From Candidatus Deferrimicrobiaceae bacterium (GTDB lineage: Bacteria; Desulfobacterota; Deferrimicrobia; Deferrimicrobiales; Deferrimicrobiaceae): a DNA stretch of 64,000 bases. The first letter of the stretch is position 1; every line of letters starts with the position of its first letter. Of the stretch, positions 361-58,991 are shown piece after piece. The notes below the pieces were generated by a model, which saw only the letters and a program-made list of their open reading frames with translations, ran no database searches and was not told where the DNA came from. Location: positions 372,001 through 436,000 of the forward strand of contig DASXVV010000009.1 of assembly GCA_036504035.1 (NCBI GenBank). Reading direction: 5' to 3'. Position numbers and translations under genes: made by a program.

Positions 361-873
361 ATGTTGTCCACTGCCAGGTTCAATCCCGCAAGCCGGAAGA
401 ATGTCACCCGCGACACCGACCCCTACATGCCTCGGAAGGCAGCACCTGCCTTGGGCGTCTGCCCAGGCTGCAACGCCGTCAGGGAGGGCCACCGCTGGAC
501 CCTCGATCCCCGGAAGGCCCGGATGCTGATGAAGGAGGAAGGCGTGGATCGCCACCACTGCCCTGCCTGCCGGAAGATCGCCGACGGATTCCCCTTCGGC
601 CTGGTCTCCCTCGAGGGCGGCTTCCTGGCATTCCACCACGACGAGATTCTCTGCATCGTCCGGAACGAGGAGAAGCGGGCCATGTCCACCAACCCGATGG
701 CGCGCATCATGTCGCTCACCGAGGTCGGCGGGCGCGTCGAGATCGCGACCACCGACGAGAAGCTGGCGCAGCGGATCGGGCGGGAAGTCCACAAGGCGTG
801 CCAGGGCGATCTCGAGTACACCTGGTCCGACTACACCAAGTTGCTCAGGGTCCGCTGGATCCGGGACGCCTGA
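361..873 (+). CDS. BCAM0308-like small zinc-binding protein
   Basis: A 170-residue protein with two CxxC pairs about 40 residues apart, CPGCNAVREG and CPACRKIADGFPFG, spaced like a zinc ribbon. The pattern and length resemble the BCAM0308 family, an uncharacterised group with an NMD3-like Cys4 N-terminus. An open frame extends upstream to 256, but the start at 361 is preferred because GGAGG lies seven bases before it and the upstream part is low-complexity and proline/glycine rich. It is transcribed divergently from folD. The function is unknown. Binding of one metal by the four cysteines is an inference from motif spacing. Confidence 0.7.
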   Translation: MLSTARFNPASRKNVTRDTDPYMPRKAAPALGVCPGCNAVREGHRWTLDPRKARMLMKEEGVDRHHCPACRKIADGFPFGLVSLEGGFLAFHHDEILCIVRNEEKRAMSTNPMARIMSLTEVGGRVEIATTDEKLAQRIGREVHKACQGDLEYTWSDYTKLLRVRWIRDA

Positions 874-909
874 CGCCCAGATCGAAGGAACAGGCCAGAA
901 AGCGATCGA

Positions 910-1242
910 TCAGGCAGTCGCCGCGGCGTTCACCCTGGCCGCCATGATGAAGTCGTTCTCATGCAGGCCGTGGATCTTGTGCGTCTGGAAAGAGACCGTG
1001 CAGTAGCCCCACCCCAGTGCGATGTCGGGATGATGCTTCTGCTCCTCCGCGATCGCGCCGACTTTCCGGGCAAACCCGAGCGCCGACACGAAATCGGGGA
1101 AACGGAAGGTCCGGGAGATCCGGGTCGACGCATCCTCGAGCGTCCATCCCGGAAGTTCCGCGATCTTCGCTTCGGACTCTACCGCCGTCAGCGGCGCGAC
1201 GCCGCCCCGACAGGGAACGCAGATCATTTCCTCGAGCTTCAT
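910..1242 (-). CDS. phhB: 4a-hydroxytetrahydrobiopterin dehydratase (pterin-4a-carbinolamine dehydratase)
   Basis: A 110-residue protein, the usual size for the PCD/DCoH family. It has a central motif EEQKHHPDIALGWGYCTVSF followed by a THKIHGLHENDF segment. These supply the histidines that dehydrate 4a-carbinolamine when tetrahydropterin cofactors are recycled. The start at 1242 has GGGAGG eight bases upstream. A longer overlapping frame to 1827 is an artefact of GC-rich coding in the adjacent prpD. No phenylalanine hydroxylase is visible nearby, so the pterin substrate is uncertain. Some bacterial members are linked to molybdopterin metabolism instead. Confidence 0.88.
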   Translation of the reverse strand: MKLEEMICVPCRGGVAPLTAVESEAKIAELPGWTLEDASTRISRTFRFPDFVSALGFARKVGAIAEEQKHHPDIALGWGYCTVSFQTHKIHGLHENDFIMAARVNAAATA

Positions 1243-1274
1243 GCTTCCCACCTCCCTTGAAATGAGGCGAACGC

Positions 1275-2723
1275 TCACGGCGCCGTCGTCAGCGCCATGA
1301 ATTCGTCGACCGGCATCGCGGACAGCCGGGCCCGGTCGAGGCAAAGCGCGACGAGCGTCTCGACCCGCTCGGCCGGGAGCCGCGTCGCGAGGTTTTCGCG
1401 GGCCTTCCGCAGGAGCAGCGGCAGCGCCTCGCTTCGCCGGCGCCGGTGCCCGACGGGGTACTCGACCTCGACTCGGCAGGTCGCGCTCCCATCCCGGAAG
1501 AACACTTGGACCGCGTTGGCAATGGACCGCTTGGCGGGGTTCAGGTAGTCCTGCGAATAGCGGGGCTCCTCGACGACTTCCATCTTTTCCCGCAAGGCGT
1601 CGATGCGCGGGTCGCCCGCCACGGCGTCCTCGTAATCGTCGGCGGTCAGGCGCCCGAAGATCAGGCCGATCGCCGTCATATATTGCAGGCAATGGTCGCG
1701 GTCGGCCGGGTTGTAGAGCGGACCGCGCTTGCTGATGATGCGAACCGCCGACTCCTGCGTCTCGATGACGACCCGCCCGATCTCGCCCAGCCGCTCCCGA
1801 ACGGCCGGGTGCAGCGCCAGGGCGCACTCGACGGCCGTCTGGGCGTGGAACTCGGCCGGGAACGACACCTTAAACAGGACGTTCTCCATCACGTAAGACC
1901 CGTACGGCCGCGGACGGCTGAAGGACCCGCCCCGGAAGGAGACATCGTAGAACCCCCACTCCTTCGCGGTCAGGGCGCCCGGATATCCGGGCTCTCCCGC
2001 AGCCGCCAGCATCGCCAGCCGGACGCCCCGGCTCGTCGCGTCGGCCGCGGCCCACGACTTCCGGGGGCCCGTGTTCGGGGCGTGCCGGTAGGTCCGCAGC
2101 GCCTGCCCGTCGACCCAGACGTTCGAAAGGGCGTTGACGATCGCCTCGCGCCCGCCGCCCAGAAGCCGCGTTGCCACCGCGGCCGTCGCGAGCTTCACCA
2201 GGACCACGTGGTCGAGCCCGACGCGGTTGAAACCGTTCTCGAGCGCCATGATCCCCTGAATCTCGTGCGCCCGGATCATGGACGTCAGGACGTCCCCCAT
2301 GACCAGAGGCGCGGCGCCCGCGCGGCGGTTTCGCCGGCTGACGTGATCCGAGACCGCCAGGATCCCTCCCAGGTTATCGGAGGGATGCCCCCACTCGGCC
2401 GCCAGCCACGCGTCGTTGTAGTCGAGCCACCGGATCTGGGCGCCGATGTCGAAGGCGCCCTGGACGGGATCGAGGACGTGCGACGTGCCGGGAACCCGGA
2501 CCCCGTCGGGGACGACCGTTCCGGGAACGACAGGCCCCAGCATCCGGGCGCAGGCCGGGAAGCGGAGGGCAAGCAGGGCGCATCCGAGCGCGTCGAGCAG
2601 CACGAGGCAGGCCGTCTCGTACGCCTCGGCGCTCCCGACGGTGCCGGAAAGCACGTAATCGGCGATCTCGACCATCTCCCGGTCGGGCTCGGGACGGAGG
2701 TTGGATTCGGGGGCCGTTGTCAT
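1275..2723 (-). CDS. prpD: 2-methylcitrate dehydratase PrpD (MmgE/PrpD family)
   Basis: A 482-residue protein, essentially the family's normal length. It dehydrates 2-methylcitrate to 2-methyl-cis-aconitate in the methylcitrate cycle for propionyl-CoA oxidation. Recognisable segments include [21 protein letters not shown] near residue 100, [19 protein letters not shown], a [14 protein letters not shown] stretch, and the C-terminal region with [12 protein letters not shown] and PRYSQDYL. Its ATG overlaps the stop of prpC in an ATGA arrangement, so translation is probably coupled. It is the last gene of prpBCD. Confidence 0.95.
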
Positions 2724-3865
2724 GCCGCGTGCGCCCCTCCCGCGCGCTGCCGGATCGGCTCGACCGCCCGCGGCCCGGGGCCGACGTAATCGGCGACGGG
2801 GCGGAAGATCCGGTTCGACGCCCGCTGCTCGATGATGTGCGCCGCCCAGCCGGCGACCCGGGCGAACACGAAGACCGGGGTGAACATGCCGCTGGGAATG
2901 CCGCAATGGTGATAGGCCGAGGCGCTGTAGAAATCGAGGTTCGGGTAGAGCCCCTTCTCTTCGCGGACCAGCGTCTCGATCCTTTCGGAGACCCGGAACA
3001 GCCGCAGGTCGCCGGCCGATTCCGCGAGCTTGCGGGACCACTCCTTGATGATGGCCGATCGGGGATCGGGCGCCTTCCGGTAGATCCGGTGGCCGAATCC
3101 CATGATCTTCTCGCCGCCGGCCAGCATGGCGCGGACCGCGACCGCCGCCTCGTCGGGCGTGGCGAACCGGTCGATCAGCCGCATCGCCTCCTCGTTGGCG
3201 CCCCCGTGCAGCGGCCCGCGCAGCGTTCCGATCGCCGAAGTCACCGCCGAGTAGAAATCGGTCAGCGTCGATGCGGTGACGCGGGCGGAGAAGGTGGAGG
3301 CGTTGAACTCGTGCTCTGCGTAAAGGATCAGCGACACGTCGAGCGCGCGCCGGTGGAGGTCGCGGACCGTCCGGCCGTGGAGCAGGTGCAGGATGTGGCC
3401 GGCCAGCGTCTCTTCGCCCGAGTCGGTGTCGACGCGGTGTCCGTTGTGATGGTAATGGTGCCAGTAGAGAAGCATGCCGGGAAGCGCCGACAGCAGACGG
3501 TCGGCGATGTCGCGCGCATCGTGCTTCTCCCGTTCGGGTTCGAGCGTGCCGATCGCCGAGCAGCCGGTGCGGAGGACGTCCATCGGGTGGGATGTTCCGG
3601 GCAGCTCCTCGAGGATGATTTTCAGCGGGCCGGGCAACCGCCGCATCCCGCGCAGGCACAGGCGGTAGGCCTCCAGTTCTTCACGGCCGGGCAGATTCCC
3701 GTGGATCAGGAGATGGGCCACTTCCTCGAACGAGACGTGCGTGGCCAGCTCCTCGATCGGATAGCCTCGATAGCTGAGTCCCCTTCCCTTCTTGCCGACC
3801 GTGCTGATCGCCGTCTCCCCGGCGACGACCCCTTCGAGCCCGGCGCTATAAGCATGTTCGGTCAT
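2720..3865 (-). CDS. prpC: 2-methylcitrate synthase / citrate synthase family protein
   Basis: A 381-residue citrate-synthase-fold enzyme that condenses propionyl-CoA with oxaloacetate. Signatures include the N-terminal VVAGETAIS and [12 protein letters not shown], the catalytic [10 protein letters not shown] segment, and [15 protein letters not shown] followed by [18 protein letters not shown]. The short, roughly 380-residue architecture without the long N-terminal extension is typical of PrpC and type I/short citrate synthases. Its place between prpB and prpD decides the substrate. Its start overlaps the prpB stop by four bases (ATGA), and its stop overlaps the prpD start. Confidence 0.93.
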
Positions 3866-48745: not shown

Positions 48746-50419
48746 TCAGCCACTCCCTTCGTGCCGGTCGGACCCGGCGTCCTCACCGTTCGCCAAAAGA
48801 TACGCCAGACTTCGCGTACGGCGCAACAACTTTCCGTAAATCCTGGCATTTTCGGCGGACGCCTCTTCGAGCCCACCCGCTTCCATGTTTTCCTCTTCGA
48901 GCGCAAACATCGTGCATAAACTGTTCACCTCGGGAACGGCCTGCCCCAGCTCCCGGATCGATTTCCCCGAGCGACGGATCGTTTCGAGCCCCGCCTCGAG
49001 CTGCGCCCGGTGGCGCGGGTTCCGGCCCAGTTTTGCAAGATCGCCCCCGGCGTTCCGTCCTTCGAGCGCAAGCGATTCGAGCTTCCTTAGGACAGCGACG
49101 AGTTCGCCGCCTGCCGCGGGCAAGACGAAACGCTCGCCGGGCATCGCCCCCATGTCCCCGAGGGATGCCGGCCAGATCTTGCGATAGGCGCGGACAAGCC
49201 GTGTGCGGAGATCGGGCGGGCGGTCGACCAGTGGCCGATAGTCGAGCATGCCGTCCTCGCCCCAAAACGTCGCATAGACGTCGCACGTCGCAAACGCCCC
49301 GGCGTCGGGAATCGAGCGTTCCGCCAGCGGATCGCCGGAAAGCATCCTGACCGCGGCATCGGCGACAGCTTGCGGCGGGATCATCTCCTTGCACTCGGGG
49401 TTGACGCAGCGGACGTGGAACGAGCAGGGTGCGCAGGCGGCCCGAGACTGGACCACGACGTGCCCCTCCCCGTACGGAGCCGTATTGGAATAGTGGATCG
49501 GCCCGAGCGCGACCGACAGGACGCGCGTCCCCGCAGCCGCCGCGACATGCATCGGACCGGTGTCGTTCGTGATGGCCAGGTCGCAACGCTCCAGGAGCCC
49601 GGCGAGTTGCGCCAGGTCGGTCTTGCCGGCCGCGACGGCGCTCCCCGGCGCGTCGATGCAGGCGAGCGCGCGTTCGGCCACTTCGCGCTCCGCCCCGCCG
49701 CCGCCGACGAGCAGGAAGCGGGCGTTCCCGACCCGTTCCCTGATCGCGCGGCAGGCCAGGACGAACGATGCCGGAGTCCACATCTTGTGGGAGTCGCTTG
49801 CCCCCATGTGGACGGCGACGAGCGGTCCGTCGCCCGCACATTCCCGCGCCAGGAAGTCCTCGGCCCAGCGGCCGGCGTCGGCAGGAATCCGGATCGCGAG
49901 CGGAAACGGCCCTTTCCCGCCCTCGGGCCCAGCCGTCTGCGCGCACAGGTCGACAAGATTGAAGGGGCAGCAGGTTTTTTCCGCGATGTAGGCATGGAGG
50001 AAACGCATCCAGGGATCCGGAACACGCCGCTGCCCCTCGAGCGTCATGACAGGCCCCCGCTTGTCGGCTGCCTGGACCAGGTACATGAGCATCGCGCTCA
50101 CGTGAGTGTGGGTCATGTTGACCGCGATGCGGAATCTCCGGGAAAGGAGCGGCGCGAGGACGGCTTCCGCCTCCCCGAGCATCGACTTCAGCGTGAGGTC
50201 GCTCCTGAGCGAGAGGCGAAGTAGCGCGTCCCGGTCGATTGGGATGATCTCGTCGACGCCGCCCATGAGCCCGGCCGCCGATACGAACTCGGGGAGGACA
50301 CAGACCGCCACGGGGGAATCCGGTTGCCGGCTTCGGAGCCGCTGGGCCAGGGGCGTCAGCTGCACCAGATCGCCGACGCGGACGAACGCCAGGATGAGGT
50401 TGGCGTCAGCGGCCGCCAT
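48746..50419 (-). CDS. GT9 (heptosyltransferase-type) glycosyltransferase with C-terminal extension
   Basis: A 557-residue protein. Residues 5-350 are a GT9 domain: LILAFVRVGDLVQLTPLAQRL, PLVAVHMGASDSHKMWTPASF, CDLAITNDTGPMHVAAAAGTRVLSVALGP. The last 200 residues are helical and unlike standard heptosyltransferases. The start at 50419 overlaps the preceding CgeB-type gene by 14 bases; GGGGAG lies upstream. Given its place behind fliS and another glycosyltransferase, transfer of sugars to flagellin is plausible. LPS core synthesis is the usual role of GT9, but no other LPS genes are here. Confidence 0.82.
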   Translation of the reverse strand: MAAADANLILAFVRVGDLVQLTPLAQRLRSRQPDSPVAVCVLPEFVSAAGLMGGVDEIIPIDRDALLRLSLRSDLTLKSMLGEAEAVLAPLLSRRFRIAVNMTHTHVSAMLMYLVQAADKRGPVMTLEGQRRVPDPWMRFLHAYIAEKTCCPFNLVDLCAQTAGPEGGKGPFPLAIRIPADAGRWAEDFLARECAGDGPLVAVHMGASDSHKMWTPASFVLACRAIRERVGNARFLLVGGGGAEREVAERALACIDAPGSAVAAGKTDLAQLAGLLERCDLAITNDTGPMHVAAAAGTRVLSVALGPIHYSNTAPYGEGHVVVQSRAACAPCSFHVRCVNPECKEMIPPQAVADAAVRMLSGDPLAERSIPDAGAFATCDVYATFWGEDGMLDYRPLVDRPPDLRTRLVRAYRKIWPASLGDMGAMPGERFVLPAAGGELVAVLRKLESLALEGRNAGGDLAKLGRNPRHRAQLEAGLETIRRSGKSIRELGQAVPEVNSLCTMFALEEENMEAGGLEEASAENARIYGKLLRRTRSLAYLLANGEDAGSDRHEGSG

Positions 50420-52223
50420 GACGGAGCTCCCCCAGCATGAGAACCATCGTTTCGAGCTTCGTAAGCGGGTGGCCCGGGTTTCCGCGAATGACGTGGCGGT
50501 GCAGGCGGTCGAAATCGACGAGCGCCTCCGCGTCGAGACCGCGGAGCATCGATTTCCAGTCGGGGTCGGCGCTTTCCTCGGCCAGCGCGCGGGCCGTCGG
50601 TATCTTCCTGCCCGGATCCGGTGGGCAGTGCTCGTGGACCGCCTCGAGGAGCTCGCGCATCCGCTGCGGGTAGGTGTGCTCCCGGAGAACCCGGTTTCGC
50701 GCCTTTTCGGCCATCGAACGGCGGGATTCGGGATCGGCGAGATAAACGTCGAGCAGCGCATCGAACTCGACGCGGTCGGAAAAGCATTCGACCTCGACGC
50801 CCGGCTCGAAGAGGCCGGGCAGGAGCGAGCGACGGTCGACCAGCTGAAAGGCCGCGCAAGCGGCGATCTCGAAGGTCCGCGGGTTGACGAAGTCTCCGAA
50901 CGGATTGATGCCCTCGTGGCTGACCGACGAATGCAGGTTGACGTTGACGTCGGTCGCATTGAAGATCTTGGCCGTCTCCGGAGCCGTCAGTCGCCGCCCC
51001 CCTTCCTGGACCAGCGGCGCCAGCGGACCGTCGGCCGGCCACCCGGTGCCCCAGATCCGGAACGGTTTCGAGGCGAGCGCCTGGAAGAAGCGGATGCGGT
51101 TGTAGTAGGCCGCCCCCATGAACGAGATCGGGGAGCCGAAATCCCGGCGATCTCGCACTTCGAGCACCATCGGGGCGAACACCGAACAGTCCGCGGCCAA
51201 CGGAAGATAATGATGATGCGCCTGTCCCGCCGTCGCGAGCGCCTTGGGGAAATCTCCTTTCTGGATCGGGAGGAACAGATCGTACGACGCGGCTTCGGAC
51301 TCCCAGCGACGCAGCAGGTGCCGGTCTTCGACGAACCATGTGACGACTCGGCGTCCTTGCTCGCGGAACGCGCGAAGCTGGTCGGCCCCCACCGGCGCGT
51401 CGGGCAGCACGACCACGATCGCCGGGTCGAACGCTGCGACGCGTGCCGCGACCTGGGACGACGCCCACGCCAGGAAGGTCGAAACCCCGGCATCGAATCC
51501 GCCTTCGCTCCCCTTCCGCGCATGGGTGGCGTGAAACGCCCGGAGCGGGTTGAGAATCGCCCCGAAGGGCGAGACGTCGACGAAGTCGACCGCCATGCCG
51601 TTGGCCTGGAGGCCCGCCGCCGCATGCCGGGCGGTCTCGACGGCCCCGCCGTAGATGGGCGACACGACGGAGACCTTGTAGCAGGCGTCGCGCGCAGATG
51701 CGATCGCCGCGCATTTGTTCCGGAAATCGTCCGCGAAAGCGGGAAAGAGCCAGGACAGGTAAGGGAGGGGCAGAACCGCCTTCACGCCGGCAAGGAGCGC
51801 CTTGTGTTCCCCCGCCCGAAATAGTTCGGCAGGATCGTCGATCAGGAATAAGGGGACGCGGTCCAGGAATGCCGGGACGTCCCGGTGCGCGGCCATCCCG
51901 GCAAGAAGCGCCCGGACCGGCTCGAAAACGACGGGCTTGAGCCCGGCTTCGAGAAGGGCCTCGGCGACATACCCGAAACCGTTGCCCAGCACCGCGACGG
52001 CTTCACCCTGCCGGGCGTCGACCTGCCGACGGAATGCGTCAACGAAGCGTCGGGCTTCATCGATCGGGTCGTAGCTGCTGTGGATTGTTTTCCCGGCGAA
52101 CCTCGGGACCGGGAGGCCACCGGTGCGCGAGGAGACGACCTCGTCGACGGAGGGGCCCCCGCTCCGTGAGAACGCTTCCAGCTTCAGGGGAAGGGTTTGG
52201 CGTGTTACGAATTCGACAGGCAA
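50406..52223 (-). CDS. CgeB-like glycosyltransferase with Maf-like N-terminal region
   Basis: A 605-residue protein. Residues 1-170 contain SSYDPIDEARRFVDAF and AVAVLGNGFGYVAEALLEAGLKPVVFEP, resembling the N-terminal part of Maf-like motility accessory factors. Residues 180-560 resemble the CgeB / Glyco_trans_1_2 family: SPIYGGAVETARHAAAGLQANG, TWFVEDRHLLRRW, GSPISFMGAAYYNRIRFF, NLHSSVSHEGINPFGDFVNPRTFEIAACAAFQLVD. It follows the fliT-like gene in the flagellin/cap operon, so flagellin glycosylation is the likely role. Sugar donor and target are unknown. Confidence 0.8.
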   Translation of the reverse strand: MPVEFVTRQTLPLKLEAFSRSGGPSVDEVVSSRTGGLPVPRFAGKTIHSSYDPIDEARRFVDAFRRQVDARQGEAVAVLGNGFGYVAEALLEAGLKPVVFEPVRALLAGMAAHRDVPAFLDRVPLFLIDDPAELFRAGEHKALLAGVKAVLPLPYLSWLFPAFADDFRNKCAAIASARDACYKVSVVSPIYGGAVETARHAAAGLQANGMAVDFVDVSPFGAILNPLRAFHATHARKGSEGGFDAGVSTFLAWASSQVAARVAAFDPAIVVVLPDAPVGADQLRAFREQGRRVVTWFVEDRHLLRRWESEAASYDLFLPIQKGDFPKALATAGQAHHHYLPLAADCSVFAPMVLEVRDRRDFGSPISFMGAAYYNRIRFFQALASKPFRIWGTGWPADGPLAPLVQEGGRRLTAPETAKIFNATDVNVNLHSSVSHEGINPFGDFVNPRTFEIAACAAFQLVDRRSLLPGLFEPGVEVECFSDRVEFDALLDVYLADPESRRSMAEKARNRVLREHTYPQRMRELLEAVHEHCPPDPGRKIPTARALAEESADPDWKSMLRGLDAEALVDFDRLHRHVIRGNPGHPLTKLETMVLMLGELRHGGR

Positions 52224-53118: not shown

Positions 53119-54855
53119 TCAGAGTGAACTGAGCGCCCCGGACTGGTTCTTCAAGACTCCGACCAATTGTTCCATGTTCGCGAATTTGACCTTGAGCGAC
53201 GCCTCGTACAACGTCACAGCCGATTCCTTCTGGGTCACCATGGCATTGATGCTTTTGATCCTCGACTGGATGTTCGCCTTCCGGGTAGCGACGAGGCCGG
53301 AGACGGGCGACATCCAGCTGTCGATCTTGTCCATGATCTGCGCGGCCACGCCCTTCGTGCCGGTCGACAGGTTTTTCGTGAAGAGGTCGACGACGCCCTT
53401 GAAATCGGCCGACATCGCCGTGTCCATCTTCGCGGAATCCATGGACATCGTCCCGTCGGACTGCGTCCTGATGCCGACACGAGACAAGGCATTGTAATTG
53501 CCCCCGAGGCCCTTGACCGCGTTGACGAGAAGGGAGGTCAGGGAATTCGACACGCTGGATACCGCCATGTCGCCCTGGAGCGGCCCGGCCTTTTTCGTTG
53601 TCGCGTCGTAGGTCGAGTTGGAGCGGACGTAGCCCGCAAGGTCGTTGTATGCGGCGATGAACGCCTGCACCTTGTTCCGGATCGCGCCGTTGTCCTTGGT
53701 CACGCCGATGGAAATCGACGGCTTTGTGGAGGGAGCGCTCACTAAATTCAGCGTAACCCCGGAGACGAGGTCGGTGATCACGTTGGTCGAGCGGTGAAGG
53801 CCCGTCATGCCGTCGATGTCGATGATGGCGTCCTTCGCCGTCTGGGTGTTGGCGAACGACAGCGTCTTGGGATCTCCGGGCGTCGTGGGCGTGTAGACCG
53901 ACGTGAAGGCAGCCACCTCGCCCATCCCCTTGCCGGTCAGTACCAGCGACCAGGAGGGGGCGGCGGTCGTCCCGGTGTTGATGGCGCTTGCGGAATAGGA
54001 CGGGATCCCGCCGGACAATTTGGAACCGGACAGCTGGATCGCGCCATCGGTACCGCTGCCGCCGGCATTCGTGTTGGTCATCCCGACCAGGTTCCCGCCA
54101 CTGCCCGCAACAGTCGCTTTCACGGTGACGACGCCGCCCGAAGCGGACATGGAGGTTCCGCTTCCGGGGGATGCGGCCGCCAACCGGGTCGCGATGTCGC
54201 CACCGGTTGCCGCGCCGCTGATATCGACCCCGACGTTCGTGCCCGCATAGGCCCCGGCGGAACTGTCGTAGAATTCGTAGGTCTTGTCATCGATGGCGAG
54301 CTTGGTCCCGGTGGCGGGAACGGCCAGGAAAGAGAGCGACCCGTAGGCCGTCGGAGCGGAGTTGTTGATCTTGTCCCGGATGGCCGAGAGTGAATCTCCC
54401 GCTGAGATCGAGACCAGGTTGTCGGGGACGGAAACGCCCGGCATTGCTGCCGGGGTAAACTTGAGGGTTCCGGCCAGGCCGAACGGGTTGTCTGCGGAAA
54501 CGGAAGTTTCGGCCGATTTGGACGACTGCCCGGAGGCCATCTGCTGGACGACGACCGTGTGGTTCCCCTCGGAAGCCGCGGACGAAGCGGCGACGGTCAT
54601 CACGTTGCTGTCGCTGGTGCTGCTGGAAAAGGCCGAGAAGGAGCTTGTCGATGCGATCGCCTGAGCCGCGCTTCGCAGGGCGGTCAGCTTCCCGGAAAAA
54701 GTGTCCATCATGGTCAGGTTGGACTGGTAGTCGGTCACCTGGCTCTGCAAGAGATCGATCGGTTGCCGCTTGGCCGCGACGAGGGCGGCGATCAGGCTCG
54801 ACGAGTCGATCCCGGAGGAGAGCCCGGAGAAATTGACGCTGTTCGTCGTCGCCAT
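53119..54855 (-). CDS. fliD: Flagellar filament cap protein FliD
   Basis: A 578-residue hook-associated protein 2. The N-terminal domain begins NSVNFSGLSSGIDSSSLIAALVAAKRQPIDLL. The FliD_C domain includes GVTLNLVSAPSTKPSISIGVTKDN, IAAYNDLAGYVRSNSTYDATTKKAGPL and a C-terminal coiled-coil region. Residues 186-284 (54004-54300) form an insertion that matches a similar insertion in FlgK. FliD caps the filament and promotes flagellin folding. It follows flaG by four bases. Confidence 0.94.
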   Translation of the reverse strand: MATTNSVNFSGLSSGIDSSSLIAALVAAKRQPIDLLQSQVTDYQSNLTMMDTFSGKLTALRSAAQAIASTSSFSAFSSSTSDSNVMTVAASSAASEGNHTVVVQQMASGQSSKSAETSVSADNPFGLAGTLKFTPAAMPGVSVPDNLVSISAGDSLSAIRDKINNSAPTAYGSLSFLAVPATGTKLAIDDKTYEFYDSSAGAYAGTNVGVDISGAATGGDIATRLAAASPGSGTSMSASGGVVTVKATVAGSGGNLVGMTNTNAGGSGTDGAIQLSGSKLSGGIPSYSASAINTGTTAAPSWSLVLTGKGMGEVAAFTSVYTPTTPGDPKTLSFANTQTAKDAIIDIDGMTGLHRSTNVITDLVSGVTLNLVSAPSTKPSISIGVTKDNGAIRNKVQAFIAAYNDLAGYVRSNSTYDATTKKAGPLQGDMAVSSVSNSLTSLLVNAVKGLGGNYNALSRVGIRTQSDGTMSMDSAKMDTAMSADFKGVVDLFTKNLSTGTKGVAAQIMDKIDSWMSPVSGLVATRKANIQSRIKSINAMVTQKESAVTLYEASLKVKFANMEQLVGVLKNQSGALSSL

Positions 54856-55333: not shown

Positions 55334-56152
55334 TTACTTGAGGAGCGAAAGGGCGATCGAGGGCTGCTGGTTGGCCTGCGACAGGACCGAGACGCCTGCC
55401 TGCACCAGGATCTGGTTCCGGGTGTAGTTGGCGGTTTCCTCGGCGACGTCCACGTCGCGGATGCGCGAGTTGGCGGCCGTGGTGTTCTCGATGCTGACCG
55501 AGAGGTTCCGGATGACCGACTCGAGCCGGTTCTGGAGGGCACCCAGGCTGCCTCGAGCCGTGGTGACCGAGGAGATCGCGGTGTCGATCGTCGTCAGGAC
55601 GGCCTGTGCGGAGGCGGCCGTGGAGATGTTGGCGGCGCTGATGCTCAGCGTACCGGTGGTGACGGTCGAGAGGCCGACGCCCAGCTGTTCGGAGGAGCCG
55701 GTGCCGATCTGCAGGGAAATGCTGGAGACAGTGCCGGTCAGAAGCGCCTGTCCGTTGAACTTGGTCGAGTCGGAGATTCTTCCGATTTCGGCGGTCAGTG
55801 CAGAAAACTCGGCGTTCAGGTTGGTGCGTTCCGTATCGCCGATGTCGCCCGAGGAAGACTGGACCGCCAGTTCACGCATGCGGCTCAGGCTGTTGGTGAT
55901 TTCGACCATCGCGCCTTCGGCCGTCGCCACGACGGAGATGCCGTTGGCGGCGTTGCGGGAAGCCTGCCCGAGGCCGCGGATCTGGGCGCCCAACTTTTCG
56001 GAAATCGCCAGGCCGGCGGCGTCGTCTGCGGCCTTGGTGATGCGCATGCCGGACGAGAGACGGGCGATGGAGGTCGAAAGACTCGCTTGGGAAACTTCGA
56101 GGTTCTTGCGGGCGGTGAGGGCTGCCAGGTTGCTGTTGATTACGACTGCCAT
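55334..56152 (-). CDS. fliC: Flagellin FliC, short form
   Basis: A 272-residue flagellin with only the conserved D0/D1 helices and a small middle part. The N-terminus is AVVINSNLAALTARKNLEVSQASLSTSIARLSSGMRITKAADDAAGLAISEKL (typical flagellin block, abbreviated). The C-terminus is SIENTTAANSRIRDVDVAEETANYTRNQILVQAGVSVLSQANQQPSIALSLLK. The surface D2/D3 domains of long flagellins are absent. It is secreted and forms the filament. It has its own sigma-28 promoter and a leader of about 150 bases. AAGGAGG lies eight bases before the ATG. Confidence 0.97.
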   Translation of the reverse strand: MAVVINSNLAALTARKNLEVSQASLSTSIARLSSGMRITKAADDAAGLAISEKLGAQIRGLGQASRNAANGISVVATAEGAMVEITNSLSRMRELAVQSSSGDIGDTERTNLNAEFSALTAEIGRISDSTKFNGQALLTGTVSSISLQIGTGSSEQLGVGLSTVTTGTLSISAANISTAASAQAVLTTIDTAISSVTTARGSLGALQNRLESVIRNLSVSIENTTAANSRIRDVDVAEETANYTRNQILVQAGVSVLSQANQQPSIALSLLK

Positions 56153-58061: not shown

Positions 58062-58991
58062 TTAGCGTTTCACGGCATCGAGCACGGTCATGGACGTGAT
58101 CGTCCCGGCGACCTGGATGGAGGCCTGGAGCACGGCCTCCTGCTTCTTGAGGTCGATCGCCATCTGGGCGATGTCGAGGTCCTGGATATCGGACAGCTGG
58201 CTGGTCAGACTTGCCGACATGTTCATGAGCGAGGAATTGCTCACTCCCATGTGCTTGGTCCGCGTGCCGACCGCCGCCTGGCTCTGGAGCACCTTCTGCT
58301 GTCCCTGGTCCATCGCGTCGATCGAAGCCTGGATCCCCGCGAGATTGTTGGTCTCGAGCGCCGACCGAAACTGGGCGAGATCTTCCATGATGGAGCTTCC
58401 GGGAACGTAGGTCCCTGGAGGCGCCGGCGGCATGGCGCCGACCGTGACCCGGTCCCCGAAGACATTGCTGCCGATCTCGTTGATCTGCATCTTCTCGCTC
58501 TGGCCGATCCGGACGAGGCGGGTCCCGGTGTCGCCTTGCCAGACTCCGTCGTTGGTGTAGGCCGGCGTATCGCTCTTGAATCCCGAGAAGATGTATTCTC
58601 CGCCCAACTTGGTGTTGGCGAATCCGACCGCCTCATTGAACAGCTCGGCGGCCTCGGCCGCGGCGGACTTGCGGTCGGAGGCGCTGGCATCGCCGTTGGC
58701 CATCTGGATGGCCAGCTCCTTGGCGCGGACGAGCGTGTCGTTGATGCCGTTGAGCGCGTTTTCGGTCAGGTCGAGCGATGCATTGCCGAACGTGATGTTC
58801 CGCTGGAACTGGGCCACTTCGGATTGGCCGGTCTTGATCTGCGACGCCTTCTCGGAGGAGCGGGGGTCGTCGGACAGGTAGACGAGCCGCCGGTTCTCGG
58901 CGATCTTCTGCTGGATGGTGAAGAGCGACGAGCGGTTGTCCATCACGGAATTGCGGACGGAATCGTAGATGATCTGTTCGGTGATTCTCAT
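58062..58991 (-). CDS. flgL: Flagellar hook-filament junction protein FlgL
   Basis: A 309-residue HAP3 with the flagellin-like N-terminus MRITEQIIYDSVRNSVMDNRSSLFTIQQKIAENRR and the C-terminal helix LDIAQMAIDLKKQEAVLQASIQVAGTITSMTVLD. The centre has GEYIFSGFKSDTPAYT. It links hook and filament. It lies 11 bases after flgK, and AGGAG precedes the ATG. Confidence 0.95.
   Translation of the reverse strand: MRITEQIIYDSVRNSVMDNRSSLFTIQQKIAENRRLVYLSDDPRSSEKASQIKTGQSEVAQFQRNITFGNASLDLTENALNGINDTLVRAKELAIQMANGDASASDRKSAAAEAAELFNEAVGFANTKLGGEYIFSGFKSDTPAYTNDGVWQGDTGTRLVRIGQSEKMQINEIGSNVFGDRVTVGAMPPAPPGTYVPGSSIMEDLAQFRSALETNNLAGIQASIDAMDQGQQKVLQSQAAVGTRTKHMGVSNSSLMNMSASLTSQLSDIQDLDIAQMAIDLKKQEAVLQASIQVAGTITSMTVLDAVKR

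Follow-up and report, generated by a model that had tools for sequence, protein, structure and literature searches.

Why do the filament cap protein FliD and the hook-filament junction protein FlgK of one bacterium share a stretch of sequence that is absent from FlgL and the flagellin FliC encoded between them? The question arises from a window of 64,000 nucleotides, the whole stretch of DNA that was analyzed, taken from Candidatus Deferrimicrobiaceae bacterium (GCA_036504035.1, contig DASXVV010000009.1, positions 372,001-436,000 of the forward strand; Table 1). The reading we favor, with a probability of roughly 70%, is that the shared module is a solvent-exposed accessory domain, beta-grasp-like and of the sheath domain II type, which has been slotted into the variable outer regions of axial proteins of the flagellum; it would be passive there, and its two copies would have diverged from each other earlier than the species of the genus.

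Table 1. Flagellar genes of the window and the accessory module in two of them (positions count from the first letter of the window).
Feature	Position	Strand	Basis
fliD, filament cap protein, 578 aa	53119..54855	-	PF02465 FliD_N 14-110 (1.9e-19), PF07195 FliD_C 340-569 (2.5e-47)
Accessory module of FliD, aa 173-284	54004..54339	-	BLASTP to FlgK, E 3e-22; missing from FliD of five near relatives
FliD segment 192-229 (TYEFYDSSAGAYAGTNVGVDISGAATGGDIATRLAAAS), the part of FliD closest to FlgK	54169..54282	-	Clustered FliD/FlgK-only states, p 0.003-0.006 (consensus, four alignments)
flgK, hook-filament junction protein (HAP1), 607 aa	59003..60826	-	PF22638 FlgK_D1 (2.8e-57), Flg_bbr_C, Flg_bb_rod
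Accessory module of FlgK, aa 378-490, after D1 and ahead of the conserved GDNRN segment	59357..59695	-	BLASTP to FliD
flgL (HAP3), 309 aa, without module	58062..58991	-	Flagellin_N/C only
fliC, flagellin, 272 aa, without module	55334..56152	-	Flagellin_N/C only

Compared over their whole length by BLASTP, FliD and FlgK yield a single significant segment (FliD 156-284 against FlgK 361-490), with 42% identity, 58% similarity and an E value of 3e-22. The two modules align with a score of 232, against 47.9 +/- 7.9 in 2000 shuffles (z 23), and the hosts with their modules cut out score 62 against 50 +/- 8, which is the chance level. The initial annotation had proposed a module common to the two proteins, and these values bear it out; its pattern TY-FYDSS--AYAG-N-GVD--GA-T-GD-A-RLAAAS is likewise present in both, at FliD 192-229 and FlgK 401-438. 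The extents it gave, FliD 186-284 and FlgK 395-491, are in the right place, but slightly short of those in Table 1. Profile and sequence searches of the organism's own genome found no third copy besides FliD and FlgK. A match at E 0.2 elsewhere in the genome falls in an unrelated frame and was taken as chance.

Is the module part of the core of these proteins, or an insert? Matches to FliD were obtained in 10 of 24 genomes of the family and matches to FlgK in nine of the 24. The window's genus, represented by three genomes, is the only one in the family with the module in both proteins. One genome of another genus (G012) has it in FliD and not in FlgK: its FlgK is 482 residues long, and the sequence is continuous across the module site (VAAAGAD...VGDNRNSLLL). 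All remaining family genomes with readable FliD and FlgK have the module in neither; five genomes from three genera carry a FliD of 441-447 residues without it, and the partial FliD of a further genome also lacks it. None of the Pfam matches to FliD_N, FliD_C and FlgK_D1 in the FliD and FlgK of the window covers the module. Because the orthologues of near relatives do without it in FliD, FlgK or both, the two hosts are seen to carry the module as an accessory insert, outside the FliD/FlgK core, as the initial annotation had it. That annotation had also named what would undo this view, a general core domain always present in FliD and FlgK. Something of the kind is suggested by head 1 of Pseudomonas aeruginosa FliD, which resembles Burkholderia FlgK (PMC5072837), so that the two proteins share a fold elsewhere. 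However, most near relatives of both proteins are without the module, it falls outside the Pfam core domains, and module-less hosts are alike only at chance level; the orthologues of near relatives rule out a core domain here, and we give that explanation almost no credence.

Two side observations concern the same set of genomes. At the module site, FlgK of the other genera in the family carries another outer domain, and the outer slot of FlgK has thus been exchanged inside one family. Many genera, moreover, seem to have lost their flagella, since no FliD match came from 14 of the 24 genomes, most of them nearly complete.

Within FliD, the module is located in the stretch that corresponds to the D3 part of solved FliD heads, residues 106-339 of the FliD model being structurally aligned to residues 103-221 of Escherichia coli FliD. 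D3 is a loop insertion in D2 (PMC5072837, PMC8533109). A Flagellin_IN-like stretch at FliD 146-166 (PF07196, E 0.0022, under the Pfam cut-off) precedes the module directly in the same head domain, but belongs to the host domain. The model has a pLDDT of about 70-86 over residues 170-250 and of 45-60 beyond, and it places strands at 170-176, 185-188, 191-196 and 208-211, a helix at 218-228, and further strands at 234-239, 242-247 and 273-276, the last part at pLDDT 45-60. In the FlgK model the module has a pLDDT of about 25-30 and is unusable, so a shared fold in FlgK is argued from sequence.

Where does such a domain come from? The FliD module of the sister genus matches the phage family phrog_28344 at E 2e-6, and its match to the tail sheath family phrog_165 is at noise level. 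A profile built from seven flagellar modules, with no phage seed, retrieves a Mu-like tail sheath encoded in another genome of the phylum (E 3.7e-5), and hhalign of the module profile against eight Mu-type sheath domains gives P 5e-4, with a probability of only 32%. In structure, residues 167-285 of the FliD model align over 78-97 residues with one and the same domain in the sheath proteins of six phages. The matches include 8kee (Z 8.1, rmsd 2.5 over 86 residues), 8foy (Z 8.0) and residues 100-214 of the Mu sheath (9khy_a, Z 7.5), all for the FliD copy and by VIA-align, where a Z of 7-8 can come from common arrangements and a Z under about 8 is no proof. The stretch of Mu picked by sequence alignment is 98-213, against 100-214 by structure. 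The FliD module model also aligns with chains of T7-type tail complexes.

Phage_sheath_domII (PF17481), which is domain II of the Mu-type sheath protein gpL, and the module both have G..GN...(S)GG toward the C-terminal side, whereas hairpin and helix lie some 10-20 residues further apart in the flagellar module (YDSS-AYAG-N-GVD). No Pfam model matches the module, and for PF17481 this holds up to E 10; by Pfam the same sheath domain is found at residues 99-195 of the phage PY223 sheath. When the modules of FliD, FlgK and the sister FliD were compared by tblastn with 50,697 phage records, no phage donor was found, nor was one found in a scan of viral contigs, and a plasmid search returned no plasmid donor. 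A search of PDB sequences with the module profile gave chance-level matches only, trimeric adhesins (E 0.07) among them. Together, the sequence and structure comparisons link the module, as a divergent relative, to domain II of Mu-type phage tail sheaths.

Other flagellar proteins carry it as well. One FlgE copy was found independently through phrog_28344 (E 2.4e-5), and once this copy was added to the profile a second FlgE was reached at 2e-5 and a flagellin at 9e-7. A scan of the genome collection with whole FliD returned no relative, and an alignment-based scan returned no loci beyond those already known. The hook proteins in question are enlarged FlgE of two other genera of the phylum (L046/L056 and L058, about 774 and 787 residues), and the L046 protein, encoded at 763-3087 on the minus strand, may hold a second, more divergent copy directly before the first. 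In the flagellin (L057, about 583 residues) the module occupies the outer region between Flagellin_N and Flagellin_C.

This distribution has a published precedent. A study of 2007, in the part available to us, described a five-stranded beta-grasp domain in FliD, in FlgL/FlgK and in Mu-like phage tail proteins (PMC1949818). The present module lies in FliD and FlgK, its kinship to Mu-like tails emerges from the HMM, hhalign and structural comparisons, and the FliD model suggests the same order of hairpin, helix and further strands. Because hosts, phage relatives and strand order agree, the module is very probably a member of that domain, as far as the available part of the source describes it. 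Relative to the same part of that study, this FliD/FlgK pair, its absence from near relatives and the copies in FlgE and flagellin are additions. Another extra domain of the cap head, D4 of Campylobacter jejuni FliD, lies away from the cap cavity, as the module probably does, but it was not among the matches of the module profile in the PDB sequence search.

How old is the pairing of FliD and FlgK copies? Across the three congeneric genomes, FliD modules are 74-83% identical to one another and FlgK modules 78-81%; FliD against FlgK gives 40-47%, and FliD against the FliD of the sister genus 44-51%. In the module, FliD evolves at about the rate of the rest of the protein and FlgK a little faster. 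Third codon positions of FliD and FlgK modules have an identity of 0.43-0.57. The initial annotation suggested duplication or gene conversion within the cluster, and in its recent form this did not hold up. DNA identity between FliD and FlgK modules is no higher within genomes (0.57-0.60) than between them (0.56-0.61), and each copy groups with its orthologues in the tree (support 89/98 for the FliD copies and 91/99 for the FlgK copies). Conversion that is recent or still going on is thereby ruled out. Whether the pair came from duplication or from parallel gain, its origin is old, and probably lies before the genus diversified. An old duplication fits the data, and its direction was probably from FliD to FlgK.

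Two separate gains, from a pool of sheath-like domains in phages and flagella, with constraint keeping the central part of the module alike, would also account for a scattering over FliD, FlgK, FlgE, FliC and phage sheaths. The tree of 15 copies, which are too short and divergent to give the order of events, rejects none of four groupings of FlgK with the genus and sister FliD copies (AU p 0.33-0.38 each). Against this history stands a motif, together with two indel states, which FliD and FlgK of the genus have in common and which is complete in no other copy found, and we regard separate gain as possible but doubtful.

The central segment, YDSS...RLAAAS, raises a further question. Identity between FliD and FlgK is 59% inside it and 33% outside, with no such jump in the sister FliD, and most of the states exclusive to FliD and FlgK fall within one 36-column segment. 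Relative to the sister FliD, such states occupy 10 of 14 informative columns inside and 3-4 of 30-31 outside. The YDS residues are common to both proteins of the genus, and four residues inserted in the sister FliD are missing from both. When gaps are collapsed, the consensus gives p 0.003-0.006 for the clustering across four alignments, and single genome pairs give 0.0006-0.30. Could a tract of some 36 codons in the middle have passed from one of the two genes to the other before the genus diversified? The clustered states and the step in identity speak for such an ancient partial conversion. However, the signal rests on one sister sequence, p reaches 0.30 for single genome pairs, the test was made on a segment that had already attracted notice, no identical DNA word longer than 14 bases remains, and shared structural constraint predicts the same pattern. 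The data are compatible with ancient partial conversion, with common descent and uneven change, and with shared constraint, and we consider conversion unlikely. Less probable still is the idea that the cap and junction modules have been kept matched, their central segment having been copied in the ancestor or held alike by a common function, because the two modules come into contact while the cap is still close to the junction, ahead of filament growth.

To return to the favored reading of a passive plug-in domain, what would the module do? In the window's genus it occupies the D3 head of FliD and, in FlgK, the outer-domain slot, and it would most likely be a passive surface or spacer domain that adds an outward-facing lobe to cap and junction. 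Adhesion, protection from proteases or phages, and stiffness are conceivable benefits. P. aeruginosa still makes functional flagella when D2 and D3 of its FliD are deleted or exchanged for an unrelated domain, and filament growth relies on the helical parts of FliD (PMC8533109). D4 of C. jejuni FliD has likewise been judged to stand outside flagellin incorporation (PMC12221982). The location in D3 and in the outer slot, together with the dispensability of D2 and D3, is why the module is read as an outward lobe. Insertion of flagellin would be the task of the helical D0/D1 parts, without the module, and the module would be tolerated because it makes no contact with assembly. Its surface exposure and the absence of an essential role in assembly are thus suggested by its position in the hosts and by the published work on FliD. 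The separation of the two copies, through duplication (probably with FliD as the source) or through two gains, would predate the diversification of the genus, and each copy would have evolved on its own since.

Two glycosyltransferase genes on the minus strand (48749-50422 and 50409-52223) adjoin fliS-fliD, their types being GT9 heptosyltransferase-like and Glyco_trans_1_2 with DUF3880, and they are plausible candidates for flagellin glycosylation genes. With these genes beside fliS, glycosylation of surface serines and threonines is thinkable.

The kinship of the domain has been known since 2007 (PMC1949818), and, against the available part of that source, the FliD/FlgK pair is a new, lineage-specific case. 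It illustrates cleanly how the axial proteins of flagella acquire outer domains, since a single plug-in domain, also common to contractile phage tails, is found in cap, junction, hook and flagellin of scattered lineages. The sister genus, with the module in FliD and not in FlgK, provides a small case for how such domains spread.
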